The notes beneath the pieces are model-generated. The model ran no database searches. It was not told the DNA's origin and was given only the letters and a program-made list of their open reading frames with translations. The translations under genes and the position numbers were made by a program. This document shows, piece after piece, positions 3,371-36,004 of a DNA stretch of 64,000 nt (within the stretch, counting starts at the first letter, position 1; each line of letters begins with the position of its first letter). The stretch spans positions 2,089,501 through 2,153,500 of the forward strand of contig NZ_CP054140.1 in NCBI RefSeq assembly GCF_016446285.1, given 5' to 3'. The stretch comes from Desulfobulbus oligotrophicus. GTDB lineage: Bacteria; Desulfobacterota; Desulfobulbia; Desulfobulbales; Desulfobulbaceae.

Positions 3371-3865
3371 TGTAGCCTCCTTTTCACAGGCATCGACCAG
3401 CAGTACTGGTGAATCATGGAGTTCCCGAGAGCGGACAGGCCCAATTCAGGAGCTTTCGGTTCAGTACGTCTCTGTCGAGCAATCTTCTTTTATGATGATT
3501 TCTGAACAAAAATCCAGATGGTGAACGAAAAAACACACTGTTAGTGTACGCGACCGCCAGTAAATGGTCAACTTTTTCACAAAGACCTCTCAGTAAGGGA
3601 TCACCTTGCATTTCTTGCACTGTTTTTGCTTAAATGTTTTTCGTGACTGCTTATGACCAGCGACCTCTCTTTTTTCGGCTGCTGCAGGCGATGCTATTTG
3701 AGGGAACTTACAGGTGCACCTGTCCGATGTCTTTCCTGATAACGATACCTGTATCCAGGCTGTCAGTGAGGTAAGGACGGACGTCTGCTTCTGCGCAAGC
3801 GGTCCGCTGTCCGGGTGCTTTCTGTTTTTCAGGTGGTTTGCTGCAGTCGCCATGGAGATTACGTA
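3371..3865. other. Gene-less stretch between macro-domain gene and sensor kinase
   Basis: About 500 bases between divergent genes. A 93-codon minus-strand frame at 3590-3871 ends in a Cys-Lys-rich tail but has no ribosome-binding site or family likeness, so I leave it unannotated. The region probably contains the promoters of both flanking genes. Confidence 0.45.
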
Positions 3866-5332
3866 GTGCAATATGAATTCTCTACTATTGGTATGATCAT
3901 GAAAAGAATTTTTAGTCTCAGCATCATCAGTAAAGTGGCTCTTGTTCTTTTCTTTTATATATCATGTGTGACGATCATGAGTTTTTTATCCTATGTTGAT
4001 CTTGTCACTACTGAACGAAAAATGGAGATTTTAGAATATATATACAATGTTCATAATAATATCCTGGAAGCAAGACGATATGAAAAAAATTACTTTTTAT
4101 ATGGTAACCAGGATTCCCTTTATGAAAATATTGCATCAACACAGAAGGTAACAGAAATAATAGACACAATATTACATGTTGACGAAAAGCTGGCTGTGAA
4201 CAATCAGCTGATTGAACTGGATGCTCAGATAAAAGTATACACAAATAGTATTCGTGATTTACTCGCGACAATTCAGGAAACTGATACTGGGAAGGATGGA
4301 AATATTGAAGATAAAATACGTCACTATGGTAAAATAATTTCTGATATCAGTGAAGATATTGTAAATTTTGAAAAAACGCAAATTCACTCCATGGTATCTT
4401 TGCTCAGAGAACAACTGATAGTGTGGGCGTCTGTTGCCATCGTCACGGGTATTATTCTTTCATTCTTCAGTATTTCTTTTGTTTTTAAACCGATTGCTGC
4501 GATCAAAAAGGCAACTGTTGCCATTGCCCAGGGCCGGTTCAACAAGATTGATGTCATCAATACAAAAGATGAGATTCAACAGGTCATGGAAGCATTCAAT
4601 ATCATGGTGTCCGAACTGGAACGAAGACAGGATCAGCTGATTCAGGCTGAAAAACTCTCCTCTCTTGGTACTTTGACCGCAGGTGTTGCCCATCAGCTCA
4701 ATAATCCGCTCAACAATATCTCCACGTCCTGTCAAATTGCAATTGATGAGTTTACAGATGGTGACCCGGCGTTCGTCAGACGGATGCTGCAAAATATCGA
4801 TCAGGAAACTTTACGGGCTCGTGATGTTGTGAAAAGTCTGTTGGAGTTCTCTCGAACTCAGGAGTTTGCACTTCGGACAGCATCGCTTGTTGACGTTGTT
4901 CAAAAGGCGGTACTGCTGGCAAAAAGTCAGGTCTCTCCGGACATCAGTATGACGGTTGATGTGCCTCAACATCTTGTTTTACCGCTGGATATCCAACGTA
5001 TGCAGGAGGTATTCATCAACCTGATCATCAACGCGGCACAGGCGATACTCCGTCAGGGCAGCATCACTATCACCGCCACTGAAGATATTGGAGCTCAGGA
5101 AGTAATCGTTGAGATCAGCGACACCGGTCAGGGGATAGCAGAAAAGAATCTTGCCCGAATTTTTGACCCGTTTTTTACAACAAAAGAAGAGGGCCATGGG
5201 ACCGGCCTCGGCCTTTCTGTTGTCTATGGAATTGTCCAGCAGCACCAGGGGACAATTACCGTGCAAAGTCAGATCGGTCAGGGTACATCTTTTTTCATTC
5301 ATCTGCCCTGCCCGGTTAAAATTGTAACCTGA
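3866..5332 (+). CDS. Membrane sensor histidine kinase, NtrB-type, with extracytoplasmic helical sensor
   Basis: First gene of a two-component pair. There is a membrane helix near the N-terminus ([15 protein letters not shown]), a periplasmic helical region of about 150 residues containing [13 protein letters not shown] (typical of helical-bimodular or four-helix sensors), a second helix ([20 protein letters not shown]), HAMP, then the phosphoacceptor box [14 protein letters not shown] and an HATPase with [16 protein letters not shown] and [18 protein letters not shown]. The start is uncertain: GTG at 3866 has GGAG eight bases upstream, while ATG at 3893 or 3899 lacks an obvious site and the longest frame opens at 3815. 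The response regulator follows after 12 bases, so the two are one transcript. Confidence 0.9.
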
Positions 5333-5344
5333 TCGAATTCTGAT

Positions 5345-6706
5345 ATGACTAAACGGAAAGTCCTTGTGGTTGACGACGAGTCAATTTCCCGTGAAAACCT
5401 GACCCATATTCTTACGAAGGACGGGTACCTGATCAGGGAGGCTGAAGATGGTCAGACAGCGATCAGCATCCTGAAAGAAGAAGAGATCGATCTGGTCTTA
5501 ACCGATCTGCGCATGCCCGGTACTGATGGCATGGCTGTTCTTGAGGAGGCAAAAAAACTGTGGCCGGCTATTGAGGTCGTAGTCATAACCGGCCATGCCA
5601 GTGTTGACACCGCTGTGGAAGCCATGCGAAAGGGCGCTTATCATTACGTGGAGAAACCATTTAAGATTAATGAGTTGCGTGCCATTGTCGAAAAGGCTCT
5701 TGAGAAGAGTCTGTTGCGAAGAGAGATTCGTTTTCTGCGGAATCAGGTTGCTGCACACAAGGGGGTTGAACGAATTGTCGGCGGCAGCCAGAAAATGCAA
5801 GCACTGCGCGAAACCATTGCCCAGGTATCGCAACTTGATTGTAATGTCCTGATTCAAGGTGAGACAGGAACAGGCAAGGAACTCGTTGCGCAAACACTCC
5901 ATGAGTTGAGTCCCCGTTCAAAGAAACGCTTTGTTGCGTTCAACTGCGGTGTTTTTACTGAAGAACTGATTGCCAGTGAGTTGTTCGGCTATGAGCGGGG
6001 GGCCTTCACCGGAGCCAATAAAAGCAAGAAAGGGCTGCTTGAAACCGCAGAAGGCGGCACGGTTTTTTTTGATGAGGTGGGCGAGTTATCCCTTTCTCTG
6101 CAGGTCAAACTGCTTCGCGTTCTTCAGGAGCGCACGCTGCTTCGTGTTGGTGGCTCAACTGAAATTGCCGTTGATTTTCGAGTGCTGGCAGCAACCAACA
6201 AAGATCTCAAGAGAGAGGTGGAAGCCGGGACCTTTCGTGCGGACCTCTATTATCGGCTTGATGTGCTTGCGATCAATGTGCCATCACTGGCTGAACGGAG
6301 AGAAGACATCCCGGCCCTGACGGACTATTTTCTTGCCAAACATGTTCCGTTAGGACGCACTGCGCCACGACTGTCACGCTCTGCCCAGCAACACCTTATG
6401 GCGTATGATTACCCCGGAAATATCAGAGAACTGGAAAATATTGCCCAGCGTTTGCTTCTTTTTAACGGTGAAGAGCTTATAGAAGCGCATCACGTTGATA
6501 CTGTTTTTGGAGACAGTACCGGCATGGCTGTTCGTGAGCATCGGGCTGAATGGCTGACTTTAGAGGAACATGAGAAGCGCTATATCCTTGAAGTGTTAGA
6601 CGAGGTTGAGGGGAACCGGTCTGCTGCGGCAAAGATGCTCGGTATAGATCGTGTCTCCCTCTGGCGGAAAATCAAACGCTACGGTCTTGAAGATCCGGAT
6701 GCCTGA
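5345..6706 (+). CDS. Sigma-54-dependent NtrC-family response regulator
   Basis: A 453-residue protein with the classical three domains. The receiver (1-120) has phosphoacceptor Asp54 in LVLTDLRMPG and Lys in VEKPF. The AAA+ domain has Walker A GETGTGKE, the sigma-54-contacting loop GAFTGA and Walker B GGTVFFDEVGE. The C-terminal Fis-type helix-turn-helix contains GNRSAAAKMLGIDRVSLWRK. It would activate sigma-54 promoters when phosphorylated by the adjacent kinase. A probable target is the stress-protein/TauE operon at 9.3 kb, which has a sigma-54-like promoter and palindromes. Its receiver is unusually similar to the one inside the next gene (see findings). Confidence 0.96.
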   Translation: MTKRKVLVVDDESISRENLTHILTKDGYLIREAEDGQTAISILKEEEIDLVLTDLRMPGTDGMAVLEEAKKLWPAIEVVVITGHASVDTAVEAMRKGAYHYVEKPFKINELRAIVEKALEKSLLRREIRFLRNQVAAHKGVERIVGGSQKMQALRETIAQVSQLDCNVLIQGETGTGKELVAQTLHELSPRSKKRFVAFNCGVFTEELIASELFGYERGAFTGANKSKKGLLETAEGGTVFFDEVGELSLSLQVKLLRVLQERTLLRVGGSTEIAVDFRVLAATNKDLKREVEAGTFRADLYYRLDVLAINVPSLAERREDIPALTDYFLAKHVPLGRTAPRLSRSAQQHLMAYDYPGNIRELENIAQRLLLFNGEELIEAHHVDTVFGDSTGMAVREHRAEWLTLEEHEKRYILEVLDEVEGNRSAAAKMLGIDRVSLWRKIKRYGLEDPDA

Positions 6707-6738
6707 CCACTTTTTTAAATACTGCAACACTCGCCCGG

Positions 6739-8787
6739 TCAGGATGCCAGAATAAACGTCTGACGGCCAAAGACCGGTTCCACGATTTCATCGGCATTTG
6801 TTACAAGCTGTATCCGAATCCCTTCCAGAACATCGGTGTCCAGCGATTCAACTTCTTCCTGGTTGGCAGACGGTAAAAGGACTAACTGTACACCGGCACG
6901 CTTTGCAGCCAGAATTTTTTCGCGAATTCCCTTGACCGGCAGAATTCGACCTGTCAGGGTCATTTCGCCGGTCAGGGCAACATCGCGCCGTGCCGGTTTT
7001 TGCGTGAGGAGGGAGAGGAGTGCTGCAAAGATGGTGATTCCGGCGGACGGACCATCTTTCGTTATGGCTCCGGCTGGGAAATGGATATGTATATCGGTGT
7101 CTTTAAAAAATACCGGTGATACGTCAAAGACACCTGCCTGGCTGCGAAGAAAGCTCAGGGCTGTTTGAGCAGATTCCCGCAATACCTCACCGAGTGACCC
7201 GGTTAAGATCAATGTCCCGGAGCCCGGCATCAGAGCGGCTTCCACACTGATAATCTCTCCTCCGGTCGTTGCCCAGACCATACCTGTGGCAACACCGATC
7301 TGCGGTTCAACTTCAGCTGCTTCGCGTTGAAATTCACGTGGGCCGAGCAGTTGCGACACCATCGGCACATCGACCAGTATCGGCAGGTTCTTGCCATTCG
7401 TCTTGAGATGGAGGAGGGCGATCTTGCGACAGATGTCAGCTATTTTCCGTTCAAGATGACGTAAGCCGGATTCACGGGTGTAATCGTTGATGACCCGCAC
7501 CAACCCTTCCTGGGAAAACTGGACCATGTCCTTTGTCAGTCCGGTGAGCTTGAGCTGGCGCGGCAGAATAAACTGCTGAGCAATGTGTACTTTTTCACGT
7601 TCAGTATACCCCGTGAACTCAAGACACTCCATCCGGTCCAGTAAAGGACCGGGCAGTTTGGACAGATCATTGGCCGTTGCAATGAACATGATCCGTGAAA
7701 GGTCAAAGGGTACCTCAAGGTAGTGATCGTTAAAATGAACATTTTGTTCAGGGTCAAGCACTTCAAGGAGCACCGAGGCTGCGTCGCCGCAGAAATCCTG
7801 TCCGATTTTATCAATTTCATCGAGCATGAACACAGGGTTGTTCATGCCGACTCGTTTTAACTCTGTGATAATCCGTCCTGGTAATGCACCCACATATGTT
7901 CGCCGGTGTCCCCGCAGTTCAGCCTCATCACGTAATCCGGCAAGAGAAATCCGGATAAACCGGCGTTGCAGCGCTTCAGCAATGGCTCTGCCCACCGAGG
8001 TCTTGCCTGTCCCGGGAGGGCCTGTAAAGCAGAGGATGGGCCCTTTGCCCATCCGGACAAAGAGTTTCTTTTCCAACACCTCTTTGACGGTTCTGCGGAG
8101 TTCGTCGAAGTTTACCGGTTTTCCCAGATAGTGAGCAGCTCCTTTTTTAAGCGCGTCCACTGCCGAACCAACAGTGGCAAATCCGGTGACCATGATGACC
8201 GGAATGTCAGGCCTGATCTGGTTGACCCGTTCCAGAAGCTCAAGTCCGTCCATCTGCTCCATCTTCAGGTCCGTGACAACGAGGTCGACCTCCTCTTCAG
8301 ACAGGATAGTCATTGCTTCTGCACCGTTGCCTGCTCCATGACAGATATATCCGTCTTTGGTGAGGATATGAATCATGTTGGTGCGAGCGATCTCTTCATC
8401 ATCAACAATAAGAACGGTTTGTCTGGCTTTACTGCAGAGCGTTTTTGCAGCGAGGAATTCCAGGATCCGCTGTTTCACCTGTGTGAGGCCGAAATGGCGT
8501 GTGTCAAGGATTGACTGTGCCCTTATCAGATCCAGCCGATCTCGACTTGATTCCAGCCATGGGAGGGAGAGGAGCAACTCTATATAGTTGAACCCAAGTC
8601 CATATTCTGCGACCGAGGTATCGGTTTTTTCCAGTTTGGCGAATTCGTTTTTTATAACGTCAAGCACCTCTTGAGGGAGCTGAGCAATCTCAATTTTAGC
8701 TCGCAGACTGTCGAGTGGAGAAAGACCGGACGAGGTCTGTTGTGGTTGCTGTTCGGTTACGGATTCTGTTTTCTTTCTAAAAAACAT
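6739..8787 (-). CDS. Lon-like ATP-dependent protease with an internal response-regulator receiver domain
   Basis: 682 residues from the ATG at 8787; the open frame continues to 9045, but that extension shows no family likeness. Residues 22-120 match the helical region before the Lon ATPase (YIELLLSLPW, RILEFLA). Residues 123-240 are a complete receiver with Asp129/130, phosphoacceptor Asp173 (VVTDLKM), Thr201 and Lys223. Residues 247 on return to Lon: Walker A GPPGTGKT (256-263), VFMLDEIDKIG, RGHRRTYVGALPGR, and a protease domain with Ser581 in KDGPSAG and Lys624 in IREKI. The Lon N-terminal substrate-binding domain is absent. Phosphorylation of the inserted receiver may gate proteolysis. The gene is convergent with the two-component pair. 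Confidence 0.93.
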   Translation of the reverse strand: MFFRKKTESVTEQQPQQTSSGLSPLDSLRAKIEIAQLPQEVLDVIKNEFAKLEKTDTSVAEYGLGFNYIELLLSLPWLESSRDRLDLIRAQSILDTRHFGLTQVKQRILEFLAAKTLCSKARQTVLIVDDEEIARTNMIHILTKDGYICHGAGNGAEAMTILSEEEVDLVVTDLKMEQMDGLELLERVNQIRPDIPVIMVTGFATVGSAVDALKKGAAHYLGKPVNFDELRRTVKEVLEKKLFVRMGKGPILCFTGPPGTGKTSVGRAIAEALQRRFIRISLAGLRDEAELRGHRRTYVGALPGRIITELKRVGMNNPVFMLDEIDKIGQDFCGDAASVLLEVLDPEQNVHFNDHYLEVPFDLSRIMFIATANDLSKLPGPLLDRMECLEFTGYTEREKVHIAQQFILPRQLKLTGLTKDMVQFSQEGLVRVINDYTRESGLRHLERKIADICRKIALLHLKTNGKNLPILVDVPMVSQLLGPREFQREAAEVEPQIGVATGMVWATTGGEIISVEAALMPGSGTLILTGSLGEVLRESAQTALSFLRSQAGVFDVSPVFFKDTDIHIHFPAGAITKDGPSAGITIFAALLSLLTQKPARRDVALTGEMTLTGRILPVKGIREKILAAKRAGVQLVLLPSANQEEVESLDTDVLEGIRIQLVTNADEIVEPVFGRQTFILAS

Positions 8788-9055
8788 ACGCTTTTCCCTT
8801 ATGGTGCAGTCGGATGCTTGGTTTATTCTTCTCAGGACACCCAATAATGGAGCTGCGGCCGGCAGCGGAATCTCTGTGACACGCCATGCTTGCGGGTTGC
8901 TACAGTGGAAGCAATAAAAATGCCGTAAGCCCTTTCTTTTTCTGGTGTGTTTTCCTGCAGTATGACTCTGCCGGTCCATACGGTGTCTTGTGGCACAGCT
9001 CCATACGAGATTTTTTTCCTGCTGTTGTTCCGGCTTTTCTTCCATGCTGTTACAG

Positions 9056-9076
9056 TTGCAACATGCGATGTTGCAA
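9056..9076. promoter_or_regulatory. Perfect palindrome, probable activator binding site
   Basis: The 9-base arms TTGCAACAT and ATGTTGCAA are separated by GCG and followed at once by another TTTGCAA. It lies about 150 bases upstream of the sigma-54-like promoter, a usual place for an enhancer-type site of an NtrC-family activator. Confidence 0.55.
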
Positions 9077-9120
9077 TTTGCAATAGTTCCCCTTCCGAAT
9101 TTCCTGGTTTTTTTGCGAAC

Positions 9121-9135
9121 GTTGCGATTTGCAAC
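9121..9135. promoter_or_regulatory. Second inverted repeat, probable activator binding site
   Basis: GTTGC and GCAAC arms flank GATTT. It shares the TGCGAT/TTGCAA core with the palindrome 45 bases further left, so the two look like a pair of sites for one dimeric regulator. Confidence 0.5.
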
Positions 9136-9275: not shown

Positions 9276-10121
9276 ATGCAAGACACCTGTTTATCTCTAC
9301 ATCCCAGCTTTCACCCCAACGGTTACCTGACCGGTGATGTTTCGCAAACATCGGTCAAGAGATCTTTTATCATGGCTGTCACACGGAATGGGCATATGTC
9401 TGAACCGGTCATGATGTACGCCATGCATACAGCCCAGCGTTTGGGCTGTGCCGTACTGACCGTGCATGTGGATACTCTGCCGGCCTACAATCTGCGGCGA
9501 CGCAGCCGGCATTTTGCCGAAGCAGTGGAGGAAAGTATCGCGCAGTTCCGGGAGAACGTCAAAGACAGTGGTCTTATCGTTGAACATCTTTGTGAGTCCG
9601 GCCGGGTCGGTGATGTTGTCAGCCGGCTGTGCAGGGCGCACCGCCGGATTGAATTTGTCGTTCTTGACAAAGGCATTCGCCTGGAAGAGGTGGCCCGCCA
9701 GTCACCGGTACCGGTGTTTCCCGTTTTATGTAACCAACAAGGCTCTTTTCATACAGCCTTATCTTTACCCGCAATGAAAAATGGAGGTTTTACCATGTCT
9801 GTCAACAGAAAACGTCACATGAAAAACTGTATGCTCTTCGGTACGCTGACTGCTGCCTTATACGCCACCATTTTTACATATCAGGACCTGGTCGTCACCT
9901 ATTTCAGCAAAGGAGGAGTATTTGCGTTGTTACCGGTGGCCACGGTTCTTGCGGTCTCGTATTTTCATGGCAATTTTACGAGTTCCTTCTGGTCTGCCAT
10001 GGGAATCGAAGCATCGAAAAAAGAGACGGCCAAAAAGGTTGCTCCGGCACATGCAGTGGTTGACAGCGTTACCCGGGTTTCCAGACCGGACACACGTCCG
10101 CGTGTACAGATGAATGCCTAG
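9276..10121 (+). CDS. Universal-stress-protein-like domain fused to a membrane segment
   Basis: 281 residues. Residues about 28-150 resemble a degenerate USP fold (strand KRSFIMAV, helix EPVMMYAMHTAQRLG, strand AVLTVHV, later RIEFVVLDKG). From about 174 there is a basic start-like stretch MSVNRKRHMKN, one or two hydrophobic helices (MLFGTLTAALYATIFTY and VFALLPVATVLAVSYF) and a charged tail. ATG at 9795 has GGAGG upstream, so the membrane part could also be made separately. The upstream start is kept because a start at 9372 would remove the first strand. It heads the operon with the TauE permease (44-base gap). Function unknown; probably an accessory of the permease. Confidence 0.65.
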   Translation: MQDTCLSLHPSFHPNGYLTGDVSQTSVKRSFIMAVTRNGHMSEPVMMYAMHTAQRLGCAVLTVHVDTLPAYNLRRRSRHFAEAVEESIAQFRENVKDSGLIVEHLCESGRVGDVVSRLCRAHRRIEFVVLDKGIRLEEVARQSPVPVFPVLCNQQGSFHTALSLPAMKNGGFTMSVNRKRHMKNCMLFGTLTAALYATIFTYQDLVVTYFSKGGVFALLPVATVLAVSYFHGNFTSSFWSAMGIEASKKETAKKVAPAHAVVDSVTRVSRPDTRPRVQMNA

Positions 10122-10165: not shown

Positions 10166-11227
10166 ATGCACGGATCAATCGGTGATGTCATCCAGTTTAT
10201 CGACCTCAACGTCTATACAGTTCTCTTTCTTTTTTTAGTTGGTTTTATCGGAGGCCTGGTCAGTGGATTTATTGGCTCCGGAGGCGCTTTTGTGCTCACG
10301 CCCGGTATGATGAGTCTGGGCGTTCCCGGTACGGTCGCTGTGGCCAGTAACATGTGCCATAAGTTTCCCAAAGCCCTGGTTGGTGCTGTTAAACGGTACA
10401 AGTATGGCCAGGTGGATATCAAACTCGGACTCATCATGGGTGTCTTTGCCGAGATCGGCGTCCAGGTCGGCATCATGATTCAAAAGACTGTTTTGGATAA
10501 ATGGGGTCAGGCTGGTTCAAACCTGTATGTGTCCATAATTTTTGTCCTGGTACTGGTCATTGTCGGTTCTTTCGTCCTCAGGGATGCCTTGGGCATGAAA
10601 AATGCCGATGGTGCAACAGAGGTGAAATCTCCAACCGTTGCCAAACGGCTTCAGCAGATCGAGCTGTGGCCGATGATTACATTTAAAACGGCGAATATAC
10701 GTATCAGTCTGTGGTTTTTAATACCTGTTGCCCTTGCCACCGGCATGCTGGCAGCCACCATTGCTGTGGGAGGATTTATCGGTGTGCCCGGCCTGATGTA
10801 TATCATCGGCGTGACAAGTATTGTTGCTTCGGCTTCGGAACTGGTTGTGGCCTTTGTTATGGGACTTGGCGGTACTCTTATCTGGGCCTATTACGGCATG
10901 GTTGATATCCGACTAGTTATGATTATTCTGGCCGGGTCACTTTTCGGGGTCCAGCTCGGTGCAATCGGTACGACCTATGTGAAAGACTACATGATCAAGT
11001 TTGTTATGGCGACAATCATGCTGATTGTTGCGGTCAGCCGTCTTCTGGCTCTTCCTAAATATCTGTCAGAACTTCAGCTTATCTCCATCAATACCGTCAT
11101 GCTCTCGATCATGACGCATTTAAGCTTTGGCGTCATGTGCTTGGCGCTGCTTATCGGCGCATCAATCATTCTTGCCAATCTGTTCAAGGCCCGCCGTTTG
11201 GAAAAACTTGCTGCCAGAAACATATAA
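10166..11227 (+). CDS. TauE/SafE-family sulfite/organosulfonate exporter-like permease
   Basis: 353 residues with about eight hydrophobic helices and the twin glycine-rich half-repeats of the family: GFIGGLVSGFIGSGGAFVLTP near the N-terminus and AATIAVGGFIGVPGLMYIIGV in the second half. AAGGAG lies ahead of the ATG. Members move sulfite, sulfoacetate or other C1/sulfur anions across the inner membrane. The substrate is not shown by sequence, but the likely sulfate-reducing host fits sulfite or a related anion. It sits between two USP genes in one operon, which suggests stress- or energy-state control of export. Confidence 0.9.
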   Translation: MHGSIGDVIQFIDLNVYTVLFLFLVGFIGGLVSGFIGSGGAFVLTPGMMSLGVPGTVAVASNMCHKFPKALVGAVKRYKYGQVDIKLGLIMGVFAEIGVQVGIMIQKTVLDKWGQAGSNLYVSIIFVLVLVIVGSFVLRDALGMKNADGATEVKSPTVAKRLQQIELWPMITFKTANIRISLWFLIPVALATGMLAATIAVGGFIGVPGLMYIIGVTSIVASASELVVAFVMGLGGTLIWAYYGMVDIRLVMIILAGSLFGVQLGAIGTTYVKDYMIKFVMATIMLIVAVSRLLALPKYLSELQLISINTVMLSIMTHLSFGVMCLALLIGASIILANLFKARRLEKLAARNI

Positions 11228-11245: not shown

Positions 11246-12103
11246 ATGCCAACTCGTATCACCAGCATACTTGCCGCTGTTGTACCTGGAAAGACAGGGT
11301 TGTTCGCCTTCCAACAGGCTGTCCGCATGGCTCTTTTTTTTAAGGCGCGATTGATCGCCATCTCCATCACTCCCCGGTATGAGGGAAATATGAACAGATG
11401 GAAGATTGATAATGCTGAAGAACAGTTCAATAAGCCTTTTCTTCATTGCCTTGACGAGGCGCAACAGATTGCCGGCTCCCATAATCTGGAAGTGCACACC
11501 ATGCATAAGGTCGGCGATCCGGTCGAGGAGATTCTCTACGCAGCTGAAGAACAACAGGCGGATATTGTGATTCTGGGATATCCGAAGCGTTCCCGGATTG
11601 AAAGGGTCATCCTTGGTAATACAGCGGCCAAGGTCATCGGCTACAGTCCCTGTGATGTGATAATGATCCCCTATGAGGCCGAGATTGATTTTTCCCGGAT
11701 TTTGGTGGGGATTGACGGATCTTCGTATAGTATGGCAGCCGGACAGAGGGCCCTGGAACTGGGGCTTGCGTTTGGGGGTGATGTCTATGCGCTGACTGTT
11801 ATTGATATTCCCGTTGAACGGGGTTTTTTGTACGGCGTGCTGGATGAGGCCAGGCGGAAAAGTTACCCACCCCTGCAGACACTGGTCGGCCAGGGGGAGC
11901 GGCTTGGTGTGCGCGTCATTACCGATATTCTGGAAGGACCACCTTATGCAACCATTGTCCGGCACAGTGAAACCAACAGTATCGGTCTCATCGTTCTCGG
12001 AAGTCATGGGCGGACAGAATTTGGTGATCTTCTCATGGGAAGTGTGGTTGAGCGGGTGACCTCCATGGCCGCACTTCCCACGCTGGTCGTAAAAAGGCGA
12101 TAA
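11246..12103 (+). CDS. Tandem universal stress protein
   Basis: 285 residues containing two USP domains. The first (1-145) runs from TRITSILAAVVPGKTG to a degenerate ATP loop near GYPKRSRIERVILGNTAAKVIGYSPCDVIMI (interrupted here for length). The second (150-285) has ILVGIDGSSYS and the canonical G-2x-G-9x-G(S/T) loop GSHGRTEFGDLLMGSVVERV. The second domain should bind ATP and the first probably does not. GGGAG precedes the ATG. It is 18 bases after the TauE permease, so co-expressed with it. Probably a soluble sensor of nucleotide state acting with the permease (inference). Confidence 0.92.
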   Translation: MPTRITSILAAVVPGKTGLFAFQQAVRMALFFKARLIAISITPRYEGNMNRWKIDNAEEQFNKPFLHCLDEAQQIAGSHNLEVHTMHKVGDPVEEILYAAEEQQADIVILGYPKRSRIERVILGNTAAKVIGYSPCDVIMIPYEAEIDFSRILVGIDGSSYSMAAGQRALELGLAFGGDVYALTVIDIPVERGFLYGVLDEARRKSYPPLQTLVGQGERLGVRVITDILEGPPYATIVRHSETNSIGLIVLGSHGRTEFGDLLMGSVVERVTSMAALPTLVVKRR

Positions 12104-28090: not shown

Positions 28091-28624
28091 ATGCACATCT
28101 CGCACAAAACAAACACGCTTTCTTTCACACCTGCTGTGGTTATTTTTGGTTGCGGCAACGTCTTACTCGGAGATGACGGCTTTGGTCCGGCTGTTATCAC
28201 TCGTTTACTCGATTTTAACCTGCCTGCATCGGTGTCGACGGTGGATGTGGGTACCGGCATTCGGGAATATCTGCTTGATTACCTTATGCTGCCGGAGCTT
28301 AGACCGGCTTTTCTGATCGTGATTGATGTTGATGTGGAAGGGGATGGGCCGCCTGGTGAAGTACGGGTCTGTTCTCCGGTTGATCTGCCCGCCCGCAAGA
28401 TTCACGATTTTTCGCTGCATCAGTTCCCCACCGTCAACCTGTTGCGGGAGCTGCAGGAAGTAACCGGTGTACCTGTTGCTGTGCTGTTGGCCCGACCACC
28501 GGTTCCCATGGATGGTTTCGGGCTTGAGCTGTCGCCGGTGATAGCGGCTGCTGTGGAACCGGCCTGTCAGCAGATCTGCAGACTTATAGCTCCCTTTGTT
28601 GCCCCGGAGGCGGTTCTGTCATGA
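28091..28624 (+). CDS. Hydrogenase maturation protease
   Basis: About 177 residues from ATG 28091 (frames open from 27983; start uncertain, no clear ribosome-binding site). VIFGCGNVLLGDDGFGPAVI is the hallmark N-terminus of HycI/HyaD/FrcD peptidases, with the metal-binding Asp in GDDGFG and a His in DFSLHQFP. It should clip the C-terminal tail of the nickel subunit encoded in the same operon. There that tail is the 25-residue stretch after ISCATH. The end overlaps the next gene by 4 bases (ATGA). Confidence 0.88.
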   Translation: MHISHKTNTLSFTPAVVIFGCGNVLLGDDGFGPAVITRLLDFNLPASVSTVDVGTGIREYLLDYLMLPELRPAFLIVIDVDVEGDGPPGEVRVCSPVDLPARKIHDFSLHQFPTVNLLRELQEVTGVPVAVLLARPPVPMDGFGLELSPVIAAAVEPACQQICRLIAPFVAPEAVLS

Positions 28625-30102
28625 TCTACGAAGCCAAAGTTAATGACTTGGCCGAAGAGTTTGGCGTTCATCGCAACACTATCCGCAACTGGATCAATAC
28701 CGGGGTGCTGCCTGCACAGCCAGGGCCGGGACGCCGCTACCTCATCCAATGGGTTGACTATAAACGGTTGTGTGACAAGTACGGCAGGCAACCACGGATT
28801 GTGCCGGATGCTGATCCGACCATACAGACCGATCCGTATCCTGCGATCCCCCGATCCAGTACCTCAACCCACCCTCCGGTACGACTTGAAGGAAAAGCCG
28901 GCAACTCCTTGTATTCCTCGCCCGCCCTTGCCGACCTGTGTGTCACCTGTGGCTCCTGTGCCGGAGCCTGTCCGATTTCCGGGATCGATGACCTGGATCC
29001 CCGTAAGATTGTGCGTATGGCTTTTCTCGGCCTGGAAGCCGAACTGATTGAAAGCGACTGGCCGTGGAAATGCTCGCTATGCGGTAAGTGTGAAGTCGTC
29101 TGTCCCATGAATATTGAGATCGTGCAGCTGATGCGTCGTATCCGGGCCCAACGGGACCGGGACAAGGTGCCGGCCGCAGTGCAGAAGGGGGTGATCACCT
29201 GTCTGGAAAAGGGGAACAATCTCGGAATTCCCAAAGAGGACTTTCTGATCTTGTTAAAAGGCCTTGGCAAAGAGCTGGCACAAACCTCCTGTCCTGGTTT
29301 TGTGACGCCGATCGACGTGCGTGGAGCGCGTCTTCTGGTCACCATCAACTCCAGAATCCCCTTTGTTGAACCTGACACACTGAGCTGGTGGTGGAAGATC
29401 CTGCATGCAGCCGGTGAGTCGTGGACGATCTCCTCGGAGTACTGGGAGGGTGCTAACTGGGGAATCCATGCAAGTGACTACAAGGCCATGCGAACCATTG
29501 TCAAGCGCATCATCGACAATGTAGAGCGACTCAACTGTAAGGCCCTGCTGTTACCCGAATGCGGCCATGCCTACTATGCCACCCGCTATGCCCTTGAACG
29601 ATGGTTTCCTGAAGCACTGCAGCAGTTCAAGATGTATACGCTGTTTGATTTACTCCTTGAATACCTCAACGAACAGCGTATCCAGCTTAATCCGAAGTTA
29701 CACACGAAACAGACAACATTTCACGATTCATGTAATTATGGCCGCCATTCCAAAAAGACGTTCGGGCAGGATTATTTTGCAGAAGCCCGTATTCTGACCC
29801 AGGCCTGCTGCAAACGCTATGTTGAGATGACTCCAAACCGGGAAGACAACTACTGCTGCGGGGCCGGTGGCGGCGCCTGGGCCGATCCGTTCAGGGCGGA
29901 ACGTGTGTATCACGGTCGACTGAAGGCGCGCCAGATCAGTGAATCCGGTGCAAAACTGGTGGTGACCGCCTGCCTGAATTGCCGGGACCAGATTCAAAGT
30001 GCTCTTAACCGTGAATTCAATCTGAGGGTCGAAGTGCAGTACCTGTGGGAGTTGATTGCCAACTCTTTGGTTTTGCCTTCACCCGATTCTGAGAATGGAT
30101 GA
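28621..30102 (+). CDS. Fusion of a helix-turn-helix domain with HdrC- and HdrB-like FeS domains
   Basis: 493 residues. 1-50: a MerR/excisionase-type DNA-binding module (VNDLAEEFGVHRNTIRNWIN, GPGRRYLIQWVDY). About 100-175: two [4Fe-4S] motifs CVTCGSCAGACP and CSLCGKCEVVCP, HdrC-like. About 240-490: an HdrB/HdrD/DsrK-type cysteine-rich region; the second CCG motif is complete (HDSCNYGR, NYCCGAGGG, CLNCRDQI), and the first is degenerate with NC...PECGH only. It should carry the thiol/disulfide-reducing site of an Hdr-like complex with the HdrA next to it. The DNA-binding head is unexpected. Its ATG overlaps the protease stop, and its end overlaps hdrA. Confidence 0.9.
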   Translation: MIYEAKVNDLAEEFGVHRNTIRNWINTGVLPAQPGPGRRYLIQWVDYKRLCDKYGRQPRIVPDADPTIQTDPYPAIPRSSTSTHPPVRLEGKAGNSLYSSPALADLCVTCGSCAGACPISGIDDLDPRKIVRMAFLGLEAELIESDWPWKCSLCGKCEVVCPMNIEIVQLMRRIRAQRDRDKVPAAVQKGVITCLEKGNNLGIPKEDFLILLKGLGKELAQTSCPGFVTPIDVRGARLLVTINSRIPFVEPDTLSWWWKILHAAGESWTISSEYWEGANWGIHASDYKAMRTIVKRIIDNVERLNCKALLLPECGHAYYATRYALERWFPEALQQFKMYTLFDLLLEYLNEQRIQLNPKLHTKQTTFHDSCNYGRHSKKTFGQDYFAEARILTQACCKRYVEMTPNREDNYCCGAGGGAWADPFRAERVYHGRLKARQISESGAKLVVTACLNCRDQIQSALNREFNLRVEVQYLWELIANSLVLPSPDSENG

Positions 30103-33100
30103 AATGTCTGCACAGGTCATGACCGGATCAGTGGTGGTGGTGGGGGGCGGGATCTCTGGAATGCAGGCAGCGCTTGATCTGGCTGACTCCGGTTTCTTTG
30201 TGTATCTGGTCGAGAAAACCGGGGCCATAGGCGGTGCCATGCCTCAGTACAACAAGGTGTTTCCCACCAATGACTGTTCCATGTGTATTATTGCCCCGAA
30301 ACTGGTTGAATGTGGTCGTCATCCTAATATTCAGATAATGACCCTTTCAACGGTTACTGATGTTCGCGGCAAGGCAGGTGATTTTACGGTACGCATTTGT
30401 GAACATCCCCGTTATGTCGATCTGAAAAAATGTATCGCCTGTGGACAGTGCAGTGCCCACTGTCCACAAAGTGTTGACGATTCGTTCAATTTCTTCATTG
30501 CCAAACGCAAAGCAATCTATATCAAGTATCTGCAGGCAGTTCCTCTTAAATACCAGATCGACCCGGACGCCTGCATTCGTCTGCAGGGGAAGGGGAGATG
30601 CGGGATATGTGCCGAAATATGTCCACCCGGCGCCATTCATTTCAACGATCGGCAACGAGAACACCAACTGCAAGTCGGTGCCGTGGTCATGGCTCTTGGT
30701 TTTCAGACCTATGATCCCACTGGTGCCAAGGTGTGGGGATATGGGGTCTATCCCAATGTTATCACCTCTTTGCAGTTCGAACGGTACCTCTCGCCCAGCG
30801 GTCCCACCGACGGTGTGCTCACCCGTCCATCCGACCACATGCCGGTCAGGCGGATCGCCTTTCTGCAGTGTATCGGCAGTCGTGATAAAAATCGTTGCAC
30901 CAACGAGTACTGTTCCACGGTCTGTTGTATGTATGCCATCAAGGGGGCAATGACCGTTAAAGAGGGAAATCCGGAACTGGAAGTGGCCATCTTCTATACA
31001 GACATGCGCACACCGGGCAAAGAGTTTGATCGATATTATGAACGGGCCCGCAGTGAGTATGGCGTTCGTTTTATCCGTTCACGCATTCATGGGGTGGAGC
31101 CGCAGGGGGATAAAGGCGATCTGCGGCTGCACTATATCAACCCCATGGGCAAGCAGGTTGAAGAACTGTTCGACCTGGTGGTGCTGTCAGTTGGTCTGGA
31201 AACTCCTGATACCATGGTCCGGCTCGCTGAAAAGATCGGCATCCATATGACGCCGGATCGGTTTGCCTCTATTTCCGCCTTTATGCCGGTGCACACGTCA
31301 CAAAAAGGTATTTTTACCTGTGGTGCTTTCAACGGCCCGCGTGATATCCCGCAGTCGGTTATCGGTGGATCAGCGGCGGCGGCAAGTGTTGCGGCGCTGT
31401 TAACGTCAGTTCGTCATAGTCAAACCAGCAGTTTACCACCGTTACAGGAACAGGATGTCAGTGGTGAAGAACCACGGATCGGGGTCTTTGTCTGTCATTG
31501 CGGCACAAATATCGCCGGTGTGGTTGCTGTCGAAAAAGTGGCCGATTTCGCGGCAACCCTGCCCAATGTGGTTCATGTTGCCCGGAATCTTTTTACCTGT
31601 TCCCAGGACACCCAGGATCTGATTATTCAGCAGATTAAAGAGAAAAGACTGAACCGGATTGTGGTTGCGGCCTGCACACCACGGACTCATGAGTCTTTGT
31701 TTCGCAAAACCATCAAGTCGGCGGGTATCAATGAGTATCTGATTGAAATGGCCAACATCCGCAATCAGAATGCATGGGTGCACAGCCAGGAACCGGAAGC
31801 CGCCACAAACAAGGCAAAGGGCCTGATCCGCATGGCAGTGGCCAAGGTGAGCGGCCATGTGGCCCGCAAGCCGCTGCGGCTGCCTGTGGCTCCTGCAGTG
31901 CTGATCATTGGCGGCGGGGTGGCCGGGATGACGGCGGCGCTCAATCTGGCGGAGCAGGGATTTCATGTTCATATTGTTGAAAAGACGACTCAACTGGGTG
32001 GTAATGCTCTGCACCTTTTCCAAACCTGGAACGGTGAAAATGTGCCGCAGTATCTTAAAAAGTTAAAGGAGGCTGTGCAGCAACACCCACTGATAGAGGT
32101 GGCCTATACCAGCACTGTCAGCTCGGTGAGTGGTTATGTGGGCAGCTTTGCCACCACTGTACGTACCGGCACCAAGCGAAAACGTGTCATCAGGCACGGT
32201 GCCATCATCATCACCACCGGTGCCAAACGATATATCCCTGAAGAGTTTGAATACGGGAAAATACCCAAGGTGGTTGCCTCGATAGAGTTTGACAAGTTGC
32301 ACATGCATAATGAGACCAGGGTGGCCAACGGGAAGACCTTTGTCTTTATTCAGTGCGTGGGTTCGCGCAATACTGAGCGGCCCTATTGTTCCAAATCCTG
32401 CTGTACCCATTCAATCCAGAGTGCCATCAAGCTGAAAAAAGAAGTGCCGTCACGCCGGATCTATATTCTGTACCGTGATATCCGCACGTATGGACAGCGA
32501 GAACGAATTTACATCCAGGCCAGGGAACTTGGTATTGTCTTCATCAACTACGAACTGCACGGACCGCCCAGAGTCAGTAAGACAGACAGCGGCGTGCTGG
32601 TCGAAGTGTGGGATCATGTCCTGCATCGGCCACTGGAGATTTTGGCCGACGTTGTTATCCTGGCTGCGGCCATCCTTGCTGATCCGGATGCCGATAATGT
32701 GGCCAAACTGTTTAAGCTGCCACTGAACTACGACGGGTTTTATCAGGAGGCGCATGCCAAGTTACGGCCTGTTGAATTTAATGTTGATGGTGTTTTTGTC
32801 GCAGGTCTTGCCCACTATCCCAAACCGCTGGAAGAGTCCATATCCCAGGCTCTGGCTGCTGCAGCCAAGGCAGGGCGCTTACTGGCACGTCAAGAGATCT
32901 CCCTGGAACCCACCGTTGCCCTGATAGATCCGGAACGATGCGACGACTGCGGCATCTGTGTGGATGTCTGTCCTTTCGGAGCCATAAAGTTCATCGATTT
33001 AAAAAAGAGTGATGGTACAATACGTCCAGTAGTGACTGTTGACCAGGTCCATTGTAAAGGCTGCGGTATCTGTCAGGGGACCTGTCCTAAACGGGGTATT

Positions 33101-33190
33101 GGTATTGCCGGTTTCACCCATGCGCAAATTGAGGCGCAGATTGATGCTGCCCTGGCAGAGGAGCATGAGGTGGCAGAGGTGAAGACATGA
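30095..33190 (+). CDS. hdrA: HdrA-like flavoprotein, tandem (two HdrA modules in one chain)
   Basis: 1031 residues. Module 1 (about 8-440): FAD loop VVVVGGGISGMQAALDL, Cys pair NDCSMC, ferredoxin motif CIACGQCSAHCP, and CGICAEICPPG, ending IFTCGAFNGPRDIPQS. Linker with VCHCGTNI. Module 2 (about 600-950): VLIIGGGVAGMTAALNL, FIQCVGSRN and GVFVAGLAHYPKPLEES. C-terminal double [4Fe-4S]: CDDCGICVDVCPFGA and CKGCGICQGTCP. The family is the electron-bifurcating flavin centre of Hdr-Mvh complexes. ATG 30095 or 30104; either overlaps or abuts the upstream stop. Translationally coupled to mvhD (4-base overlap). Confidence 0.94.
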   Translation: MDEMSAQVMTGSVVVVGGGISGMQAALDLADSGFFVYLVEKTGAIGGAMPQYNKVFPTNDCSMCIIAPKLVECGRHPNIQIMTLSTVTDVRGKAGDFTVRICEHPRYVDLKKCIACGQCSAHCPQSVDDSFNFFIAKRKAIYIKYLQAVPLKYQIDPDACIRLQGKGRCGICAEICPPGAIHFNDRQREHQLQVGAVVMALGFQTYDPTGAKVWGYGVYPNVITSLQFERYLSPSGPTDGVLTRPSDHMPVRRIAFLQCIGSRDKNRCTNEYCSTVCCMYAIKGAMTVKEGNPELEVAIFYTDMRTPGKEFDRYYERARSEYGVRFIRSRIHGVEPQGDKGDLRLHYINPMGKQVEELFDLVVLSVGLETPDTMVRLAEKIGIHMTPDRFASISAFMPVHTSQKGIFTCGAFNGPRDIPQSVIGGSAAAASVAALLTSVRHSQTSSLPPLQEQDVSGEEPRIGVFVCHCGTNIAGVVAVEKVADFAATLPNVVHVARNLFTCSQDTQDLIIQQIKEKRLNRIVVAACTPRTHESLFRKTIKSAGINEYLIEMANIRNQNAWVHSQEPEAATNKAKGLIRMAVAKVSGHVARKPLRLPVAPAVLIIGGGVAGMTAALNLAEQGFHVHIVEKTTQLGGNALHLFQTWNGENVPQYLKKLKEAVQQHPLIEVAYTSTVSSVSGYVGSFATTVRTGTKRKRVIRHGAIIITTGAKRYIPEEFEYGKIPKVVASIEFDKLHMHNETRVANGKTFVFIQCVGSRNTERPYCSKSCCTHSIQSAIKLKKEVPSRRIYILYRDIRTYGQRERIYIQARELGIVFINYELHGPPRVSKTDSGVLVEVWDHVLHRPLEILADVVILAAAILADPDADNVAKLFKLPLNYDGFYQEAHAKLRPVEFNVDGVFVAGLAHYPKPLEESISQALAAAAKAGRLLARQEISLEPTVALIDPERCDDCGICVDVCPFGAIKFIDLKKSDGTIRPVVTVDQVHCKGCGICQGTCPKRGIGIAGFTHAQIEAQIDAALAEEHEVAEVKT

Positions 33191-33609: not shown

Positions 33610-34562
33610 AAGGCAGGAGACGACCACGGCTCAGTTTTGTTTGGTTACAGGCCTGCTCAGGGTGTGAGATCTCCCTTCTTAACAGCGGTGAGCGGTTGCC
33701 TGATCTTTTAAACAAGGTGGAGATCGTCTATTTTCCTCTCCTGATGGATCGTAAGTGTGGAGGAGAAGGGGAGTTTGATCTTCCTGAAGCTGATGTCGGT
33801 TTTGTGTCCGGAAGTGTTTCCAGTGACGAACACCTCACCCTTCTTTATGCCCTGCGTCGCCGATGCAGGACGCTGGTCAGTTTTGGCACCTGCGCCACTC
33901 ACGGGGGCATTCCGGCTTTACGTAACCGTTGGTCAGCGGAGGCTACCCTGGAAACGGTTTTTCCCGGTACACCGGGTCAACCAACACTGCCGGCAGAGGT
34001 ACCCGCTCTTCTGGATCGGGTGTACAGTGTTGATGAAAAGGTACGGGTCGACTTTTGTTTACCCGGTTGTCCGCCTCATCCTGAGACGATCGCTGCAGTG
34101 ATTGAAACGCTGGTGACCGGCGAGCAGCCGCGACTGCCCGGTAAATCCGTTTGTGAAACCTGTCCGACCATTCGTACCGGCGAGATGCACCGGACTGTAC
34201 GCCGGTTTTTAAACAATGCGGAGTACAATTCTGAAGAGCCGGTTGAGCGGATGCGATGTCTGCTTGAACAGGGCCTCCTGTGCATGGGGCCGGTGACTGT
34301 CGGAGGATGCGGCGGCCCGGCCACGCCTCTCTGTGTGCAGGCCCGGGTCCCCTGTCGGGGGTGTTATGGTCCGGTTCGATCTGAAGGCAACCAGCTGCTT
34401 GATATGCTCAATGTCCTTGCCAGTCATGGTGTTGATCATCGTTCGATTGTTGATCGTCAGTCATTGCTGCGCTTCAGCGGTGCCCATGGTCTGCTTCGAT
34501 CGGTCAGGAAAACAGAGGGAGTTGTTCTTATGTCTGAAAAAGGAAATAAAAAATCGTCATGA
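33606..34562 (+). CDS. mvhG: [NiFe] hydrogenase small subunit, Mvh/F420-non-reducing type (MvhG-like)
   Basis: 318 residues. The proximal-cluster ligands are in WLQACSGCEISLL, FGTCATHGG and LPGCPPHPET. A Cys-rich C-terminal part (GGCGGPATPLCVQARVPCRGCYGP) supplies further clusters. There is no Tat signal, so it is a cytoplasmic group 3-type small subunit. Its stop overlaps the start of the large subunit. Confidence 0.94.
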   Translation: MKGRRRPRLSFVWLQACSGCEISLLNSGERLPDLLNKVEIVYFPLLMDRKCGGEGEFDLPEADVGFVSGSVSSDEHLTLLYALRRRCRTLVSFGTCATHGGIPALRNRWSAEATLETVFPGTPGQPTLPAEVPALLDRVYSVDEKVRVDFCLPGCPPHPETIAAVIETLVTGEQPRLPGKSVCETCPTIRTGEMHRTVRRFLNNAEYNSEEPVERMRCLLEQGLLCMGPVTVGGCGGPATPLCVQARVPCRGCYGPVRSEGNQLLDMLNVLASHGVDHRSIVDRQSLLRFSGAHGLLRSVRKTEGVVLMSEKGNKKSS

Positions 34563-36004
34563 CACAGGTAATCACTATCCATCCTGTGACGCGCATTGAA
34601 GGCAATGCCCGTATTGACATTCAGCTCGATGCTGCAGGCGAGGTATGTGATGCCCGGGTCGGGATCAGTTCCCTGCGCGGGTTTGAGCAGTTTGTTGTGG
34701 GGCTGCCTGCTGAGGAGATTCCGCGGATTGTTACCCGGATCTGCGGTATCTGCCCGTGGATGCATCATCTGGCAGCGGCCAAGGCTGTTGATGCCTGTTT
34801 TGGAGCGTCGCTGCCGCCGGCCGGTCATCTTTTACGTGAGCTGTGTCAGGTACTTGCCCATATCCACGATAAAATCCTCCATTTTTTCTTTTTAGGCGCA
34901 CCGGATTTCCTGATCGAACGGGATGCTGATTATTCGGTGCGAAACATCATGGGGCTGGTACAGCAGCAGCCCGAGTTGGCAGCCCGGGTTGTCCGTATGC
35001 GGCAGCTGGGGCAGGTGATGCTGGAACGGCTGGCCGGTAAGGCCATCCATCCGGTTGCCGCGGTCGCCGGCGGCTTTGCCAGGCCTCTGGGGAAGAGCGA
35101 GCGGGAATCGTTGTACCTTGACGGGCAACAGCTGCTTGATTTTGCTTGTTTTGCCTTGGAATTTGCGAAAAAAGAGGTGTTTCCTCAATTTCTCGAGGTC
35201 TTTGCCCCGGTAGGAGCCATTACCACCGGGTTTCTTGGAACCGTTGATCAGTATGGTCATCTTCGTTTATACGATGGAACACTACGGTTGATGCATCCGG
35301 ATGGACGCGTGGAGGAGTTTGCAGCTCCGGCGTATGAACAGGTGCTTGCTGAGGAGGTTGTTACCTGGTCCACTGCCAAGGTGGTGTATGCCGGGTCGTG
35401 GGGTGAGGGACTTTCCTTAGACCCCGCCTCTCCCAAAGGCGTGTACCGGGTCAATACCCTGGCCAGGATCAATGTCTGTGATCAGATCGCCACACCACGG
35501 GCACAGGTCGAACTTGAGGAGTTCCGCAGTCGTTTCGGTCGTCCGGCGCAGCACAGTTTACTGTATCACTGGGCCCGGTTAATCGAACTTGTTTACGCCT
35601 GCGAGCGTGTTCTTGAGCTGCTGGGGGATGAGCGTATTGTTGATCCGGTGGTGCGCGCCCCCGTTACTCCCCAAGCCGGCCGGGGAGTCGGCCATGTCGA
35701 GGCACCCCGCGGCACCTTGATTCATGACTATACCACAGACGAAAACGGCTGTATAACCAGGGCCAATCTCATTGTCGGCACCACCCACAACATTGCCCCG
35801 ATGAATGTCAGCGTCCGTCGGACAGCAGCCAGTTGCATTCAGGCCGGCAGGGTTGATGATGAGATTCTCAACCGGATTGAGATGGCGGTGCGGGCCTATG
35901 ACCCGTGAATTTCCTGCGCAACGCACCGCCTGGATGGCGGGCTTTCTCTGCAGGTGCGCCTGGTTGATCACCGGGGAAAAACAGTGTGTACACTCCAGCG
36001 CTGA
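34559..36004 (+). CDS. mvhA: [NiFeSe] hydrogenase large subunit, Mvh type, with in-frame TGA read as selenocysteine
   Basis: The conventional frame ends at TGA 35906-35908 after 449 residues, in the middle of the C-terminal nickel motif: AYDP-TGA-ISCATHRLDGG. The first Cys of the family motif D-P-C-x-x-C is exactly where TGA stands, and the frame stays open and family-like for 31 more codons to TGA 36002-36004. Read through, the protein has 481 residues. The N-terminal motif RICGICPWMHH is intact. A hairpin follows the TGA (SECIS candidate). The tail after ISCATH is the peptide normally removed by the maturation protease at 28.1 kb. Cytoplasmic H2-activating subunit of the Hdr-linked complex. 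Confidence 0.92.
35909..35960 (+). promoter_or_regulatory. Candidate SECIS element just after the UGA
   Basis: Within the coding sequence after the TGA, CGCACC (35922-35927) pairs with GGTGCG (35953-35958), and directly inside it GCC (35928-35930) can pair with GGC (35936-35938) around TGGAT. Bacterial SECIS stems lie immediately downstream of the UGA at this range. The fold is drawn by eye. Confidence 0.5.

Follow-up and report, generated by a model that had tools for sequence, protein, structure and literature searches.

A Lon protease with a receiver domain inserted before its ATPase core in Desulfobulbus oligotrophicus, a relative of the DVU3303–3305 system of Desulfovibrio vulgaris

The closest described relative of the protein studied here is DVU3303 of Desulfovibrio vulgaris, a response regulator containing a Lon protease, which was reported in 2011 as part of a three-component system with the kinase DVU3304 and the σ54 regulator DVU3305 (Rajeev et al., PMC3333781). 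DVU3305 controls both operons, its own included, and its site is conserved across species; related loci were named in other species of the Desulfovibrio group and in Thermodesulfovibrio (PMC3333781). In a 2023 fitness study, DVU3303–3305 show cofitness above 0.9, and on chlorate the loss of the kinase, the regulator or the Lon is beneficial, while the loss of the TauE-type target DVU3299 is harmful (PMC10102598). The cofitness can also be caused by operon polarity, or by a requirement of DVU3303 expression for the regulator. A literature search for biochemistry of receiver-Lon proteins, covering phosphotransfer, ATPase and protease control, found none. The initial annotation of the locus described below had known of no well-studied case of its architecture, a statement that the report on DVU3303 corrects.

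We analysed a 64,000-nt stretch of the D. oligotrophicus genome (the window), in which positions 3815–8787 encode a Lon protease with an inserted receiver (REC-Lon) together with a kinase and a σ54 regulator, as in DVU3303–3305. In both systems, receiver and Lon are joined in one protein, the kinase and the σ54 regulator are adjacent, and a universal stress protein (Usp)/anion-transporter operon lies nearby; in the window, this operon is divergent from the REC-Lon gene, with palindromes in the intergenic region. The two differ in that Lon, kinase and regulator of D. vulgaris are treated as one operon, whereas the kinase and regulator of the window form a separate pair convergent with the REC-Lon gene. 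The Desulfovibrio group and Thermodesulfovibrio loci listed in 2011 also match the lineages of the REC-Lons we collected. REC-Lon of the window therefore belongs to an already described system, its presumed orthology to DVU3303 being judged from architecture, neighbours and lineages; the clade, the receiver kinship, the palindrome and the linker geometry reported below are new.

The REC-Lon gene (6739–8787, minus strand; assigned from the ORF, Pfam and conservation) has no internal stops and encodes 682 residues beginning MFFRKK. The kinase (3815–5332, plus strand) is a membrane histidine kinase with HAMP, HisKA and HATPase_c domains by Pfam and homologue alignment; its true start is probably the ATG at 3893 or 3899, and H293, in the numbering of the 505-residue ORF, is invariant in 77 homologues. 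The presumed partner (5345–6706, plus strand) is, by Pfam and NCBIfam, a σ54-dependent response regulator with receiver, AAA and Fis-type helix-turn-helix domains. The divergent operon encodes a 281-residue protein without a Pfam match (9276–10121), a TauE/SafE-family anion transporter (10166–11227) and a universal stress protein with two Usp stretches (11246–12103), all on the plus strand; neighbourhood comparison shows that the 281-residue protein is kept at the head of the operon in many loci. Elsewhere in the window, heterodisulfide-reductase-like FAD/FeS proteins, a Ni-hydrogenase large-subunit-like protein and HypF stand in a row (28621–33190, 34559–35908 and 36450–38774, plus strand), an electron-transfer cluster in which one heterodisulfide-reductase-like protein has an N-terminal HTH_17 match.

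The domain order of REC-Lon (helical domain, receiver, AAA+, protease) is as initially annotated and is borne out by Pfam and by an AlphaFold2 model. Pfam assigns Response_reg to residues 125–234 (6e-29), AAA to 252–388, Lon_lid to 415–464 and Lon_C to 472–671 (1.7e-73). With 690 bits, the match to the NCBIfam 'endopeptidase La' equivalog exceeds the cut-off (608) and is split into two stretches, and in a phmmer search of solved structures the Bacillus subtilis Lon covers residues 25–118 and 245–672. From the N-terminus, the model and alignments give the Lon three-helix bundle (residues 24–97; 8497–8718; modelled helices, matched to 4ypn); a helix preceding the insertion, which is the first of the AAA+ α/β unit (102–120; 8428–8484; model); the receiver (124–247; 8047–8418; Pfam, alignment and model) with D129, D130, D173, T201 and K223, whose long α5 (227–247) runs to AAA+ strand 1; the AAA+ α/β subdomain (250–393; 7609–8040; Pfam and alignment) with Walker A 256–263, Walker B D323 and E324, pore-loop Y298 and sensor N373; the lid (394–470; 7378–7608; Pfam); and the protease domain (472–673; 6769–7374; Pfam and alignment) with the Ser581/Lys624 dyad, all on the minus strand. 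The assignments of Asp173, Thr201, Lys223, Walker A, Ser581 and Lys624 in the annotation are all correct on the protein sequence.

The substrate-recognition N-domain had been called absent, and Pfam finds no LON_substr_bdg (PF02190) match in REC-Lon. PF02190 is likewise found in 0/66 REC-Lon members scanned, compared with 4/4 canonical Lon controls. The domain is found in the other three Lons that the genome encodes and in the nearest canonical sister Lon, so the loss is genuine and not a failure of the search. Those three (L306, L307 and L308) are canonical, bringing the total to four Lons in 3.1 Mb.

The AlphaFold2 model, built on an alignment of 66 orthologues, has a mean pLDDT of 85.5. With the receiver excluded, residues 22–393 superimpose on the three-helix bundle and AAA α/β subdomain of 4ypn over 249 residues (rmsd 1.6, Z 33), Z being about 30–33 across solved LonA structures, and the modelled receiver fits ordinary receivers with an rmsd of 0.8–1.3. 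The break in the phmmer alignment and the modelled boundaries bear out the placement of the receiver between the last helix and Walker A. Specifically, it is inserted exactly between the helix end 'RILEFLAAKTL' and 'KGPILC', with linkers in the model of only three residues from helix 102–120 to the receiver and three from α5 to AAA+ strand 1 (251–255). A doubly tethered insertion within the motor, as predicted here, is what mechanical coupling would lead one to expect.

REC-Lon is neither an assembly artefact nor a unique fusion, two ways in which the annotation had allowed that it might fail: the genome is a single 3.1 Mb contig, and 119 distinct full-length orthologues, drawn from Desulfobacterota, Desulfovibrionia and Nitrospirota, show the identical junction. 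A score cut-off sets REC-Lon apart from ordinary Lon (above 660 bits versus, in one survey, at most about 526). Sampling of 395 genomes from the phylum gave full-length REC-Lons in 48 and a partial match in one more; they were also found in 79/199 genomes of the class of a Desulfocurvus MAG, a sample that overlaps in part with the first, and the phylum of a Nitrospirae MAG yielded 25/198. Desulfobacter vibrioformis and Desulfocurvus are among the named carriers. At an E value of 1e-165, 0/398 genomes around Thiogranum (Pseudomonadota) and 0/199 around an Acidobacteria MAG have REC-Lon, which is a sampling result rather than absence, since related loci of Thioalkalivibrio and Dechloromonas are listed in the 2011 study (PMC3333781). 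Two apparent exceptions proved to be canonical Lons: L142, without a receiver in the first alignment, had been admitted by a loose filter, and L026, 947 residues long and resembling another fusion, has LON_substr_bdg and an N-terminal extension.

The receiver matches PF00072 in 66/66 members scanned. D129, D173 and K223 are each present in 119/119 orthologues, position 201 is T or S throughout, and position 130 is D in 117 and E in 2. The same set shows no variation in Walker A (GPPGxGKT), the Walker B Asp, Ser581 or Lys624, and D323/E324, Y298 and N373 are invariant or nearly so. Because pocket, Walker and Ser/Lys residues are all kept, both activities must be jointly under selection, and a degenerate receiver is ruled out. 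The two receivers with E for D130 (L230 and L231) have an altered TG motif as well; the L230 locus has no palindrome within one mismatch, and the partner clade described below does not include its regulator, so that L230 and L231 are possibly a diverged or rewired branch.

Among 101 Lon cores, the REC-Lons form a single clade (SH-aLRT 97); of the Lons sampled, a canonical one from Geobacter, with its substrate-binding domain still in place, is sister to this clade. The tree fits one origin, in which the LON domain would have been lost and the receiver gained. In the same tree, the Lon paralogues L318 and L324 have long branches (L324 the longest) and N-terminal regions of ordinary length.

The receivers of REC-Lon and of the partner regulators share a common ancestor: they form one clade (98/91), apart from 23 other receivers of the own genome, although the roughly 120 columns of this tree are too few to fix the branching order within it. 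When the receivers of the genome were compared, the partner receiver had the Lon receiver as its best match (127 versus 99.8 bits). The natural reading, which is not proof, is that Lon acquired a copy of the partner regulator's receiver. The excess similarity peaks in helix α1, where identity is 0.55 compared with about 0.25 to other receivers; in particular, I133, A134 and N137 occur in 80–99% of both families and in 0/23 other receivers. Helix α1 is the main histidine-kinase docking surface of receivers. Lon and regulator receivers of the same locus share slightly more specificity residues than those of different loci (permutation p 0.0026, with general similarity allowed for and kinship among loci not fully corrected). 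The shared docking helix and the gene neighbourhood thus lend indirect support to phosphorylation of REC-Lon by the cognate kinase.

The neighbourhood is widely retained. Kinase and regulator lie near REC-Lon in 70/94 loci, TauE in 63/94 (in 58 cases upstream and on the other strand), and all three in 55/94; in about a quarter of the 94 loci, kinase and regulator were not found near REC-Lon. One such gene (L014; 7495–9516 of its own sequence, minus strand) has as neighbours the genes for a multihaem cytochrome and for a TrkA-domain Na+/H+ exchanger; as the receiver of this REC-Lon is intact, its kinase must be encoded elsewhere. Within the genus, regulator and REC-Lon are inherited together: 12 genomes have both, 10 have neither, and 2 have one alone, both at contig edges (one-sided hypergeometric p 6e-5, calculated by hand and not corrected for kinship).

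The intergenic region holds an exact copy of a GTTGC-N5-GCAAC palindrome (9121–9135, GTTGCGATTTGCAAC), found by motif search and predicted to be a regulator site, and a second copy with one mismatch (9070–9084, GTTGCAATTTGCAAT). Across loci, the motif is common to the family: it occurs upstream of REC-Lon exactly in 35 of 92 loci, where 0.2 are expected, and within one mismatch in 66 (about 70%; expected about 2.5). Five further exact matches elsewhere in the genome all have GC-rich spacers. The palindrome is likely to be identical with the DVU3305 site. A possible σ54 −24/−12-like element faces the REC-Lon gene on the minus strand (8910–8925, CGGCATTTTTATTGCT) and has similarly placed counterparts in several loci of the genus, both on weak evidence; over the 92 loci, such elements point towards the Usp/TauE operon in 55 (11.5 expected) and towards REC-Lon in 20 (12.5 expected).

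The best reading of these observations is a two-component system with regulated proteolysis as an output, in which REC-Lon serves as second effector within a conserved stress system. In this scheme, the membrane kinase would phosphorylate two sibling receivers, that of the σ54 transcription factor and that of the protease; the phospho-regulator would bind the intergenic GTTGC-N5-GCAAC sites and drive the Usp/TauE operon, and probably the REC-Lon gene too. Phosphorylation of D173 would shift the receiver, and, because two very short linkers tie it to the AAA+ module, the shift is proposed to alter the hexamer or its ATPase state and so to switch degradation of a small set of substrates, as a substitute for the control that the LON domain, lost here, normally provides. 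The analysis establishes the anatomy, its conservation, the shared descent of the two receivers, their co-inheritance and the common cis motif; we infer phosphotransfer from the window kinase, the gating and its sign, and the substrates. That one kinase phosphorylates both proteins and that the phosphorylated receiver gates Lon is, in our estimate, reasonably probable. We hold evenly balanced the fuller claim of a directly phospho-gated AAA+ protease, whose receiver, copied from the transcription-factor partner of the kinase, stands in for the substrate-binding domain, so that one signal sets both synthesis and destruction.

Phosphorylation might instead govern assembly of the hexamer, with receiver dimers nucleating or blocking the ring, rather than ATP turnover in a formed ring. 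Receivers commonly dimerise upon phosphorylation, and the LON N-region, which normally aids oligomerisation, is missing from REC-Lon. However, solved Lons truncated to the three-helix bundle onward are hexamers (for example 4ypl, titled hexameric LonA), and the REC-Lon ring may therefore form unaided. We consider control of assembly rather unlikely; being a variant of gating, it shares part of the probability given to gating as a whole.

A docking role for the receiver is improbable in our view. Replacing the substrate-binding domain, the receiver would recruit substrates, most simply the sibling regulator by receiver–receiver pairing, leading to feedback destruction. The domain that it would replace is missing from every member scanned and present in canonical Lons, and α4 and β5, which help to form the usual receiver dimer face, are alike in the two receivers beyond background (+0.23 and +0.26). 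Nevertheless, the largest excess similarity is in α1, the kinase face, and such feedback predicts opposite signs for Lon and regulator mutants, while those of D. vulgaris have the same sign, with the caveat of polarity (PMC10102598). Last, a phosphate sink or relic attached to a phosphorylation-independent protease under transcriptional control only, in keeping with own-operon control in D. vulgaris (PMC3333781) and with the motif sites upstream of REC-Lon, is very doubtful, since the pocket of a relic would decay, yet D173 and K223 do not vary, and a sink has no need for a constant-junction fusion inside an active AAA+ core in three lineages.

None of the proposed mechanisms, phospho-gating of Lon included, explains why the system and its TauE-type target have opposite phenotypes on chlorate. 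The opposite signs run contrary to simple activation of TauE, and the transporter may be kept at lower levels by REC-Lon or by the regulator. A cleaner test system than D. vulgaris is available in the genus of the window, since Lon and the kinase/regulator pair are transcribed separately, free of polar effects. If the receiver gates Lon directly, REC-Lon would be an AAA+ protease with a built-in signal input, conserved in sulfate reducers and Nitrospirota, and would lend itself naturally to making protein degradation switchable.

Compared with canonical LonA (E. coli, MtaLonA, B. subtilis), REC-Lon shares the three-helix bundle, AAA+ module, lid and Ser-Lys protease, but is without the LON substrate-binding domain and has a receiver between the pre-Walker helix and AAA+ strand 1. 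To our knowledge, two-component control of proteolysis otherwise works through separate adaptors, such as RssB and CpdR, the receiver-based adaptors of ClpXP systems. Like these, REC-Lon is proposed to place AAA+ proteolysis under two-component phosphorylation; unlike these, it is a Lon and has the receiver as part of the unfoldase. NtrC-family σ54 regulators likewise have a receiver beside an AAA+ ATPase, and it is to the receiver of its NtrC-type partner that the Lon receiver is closest. In NtrC-family proteins, however, the receiver is N-terminal rather than inserted, and the AAA+ module of REC-Lon is that of Lon, joined to a protease and lacking σ54 contact and a DNA-binding domain.
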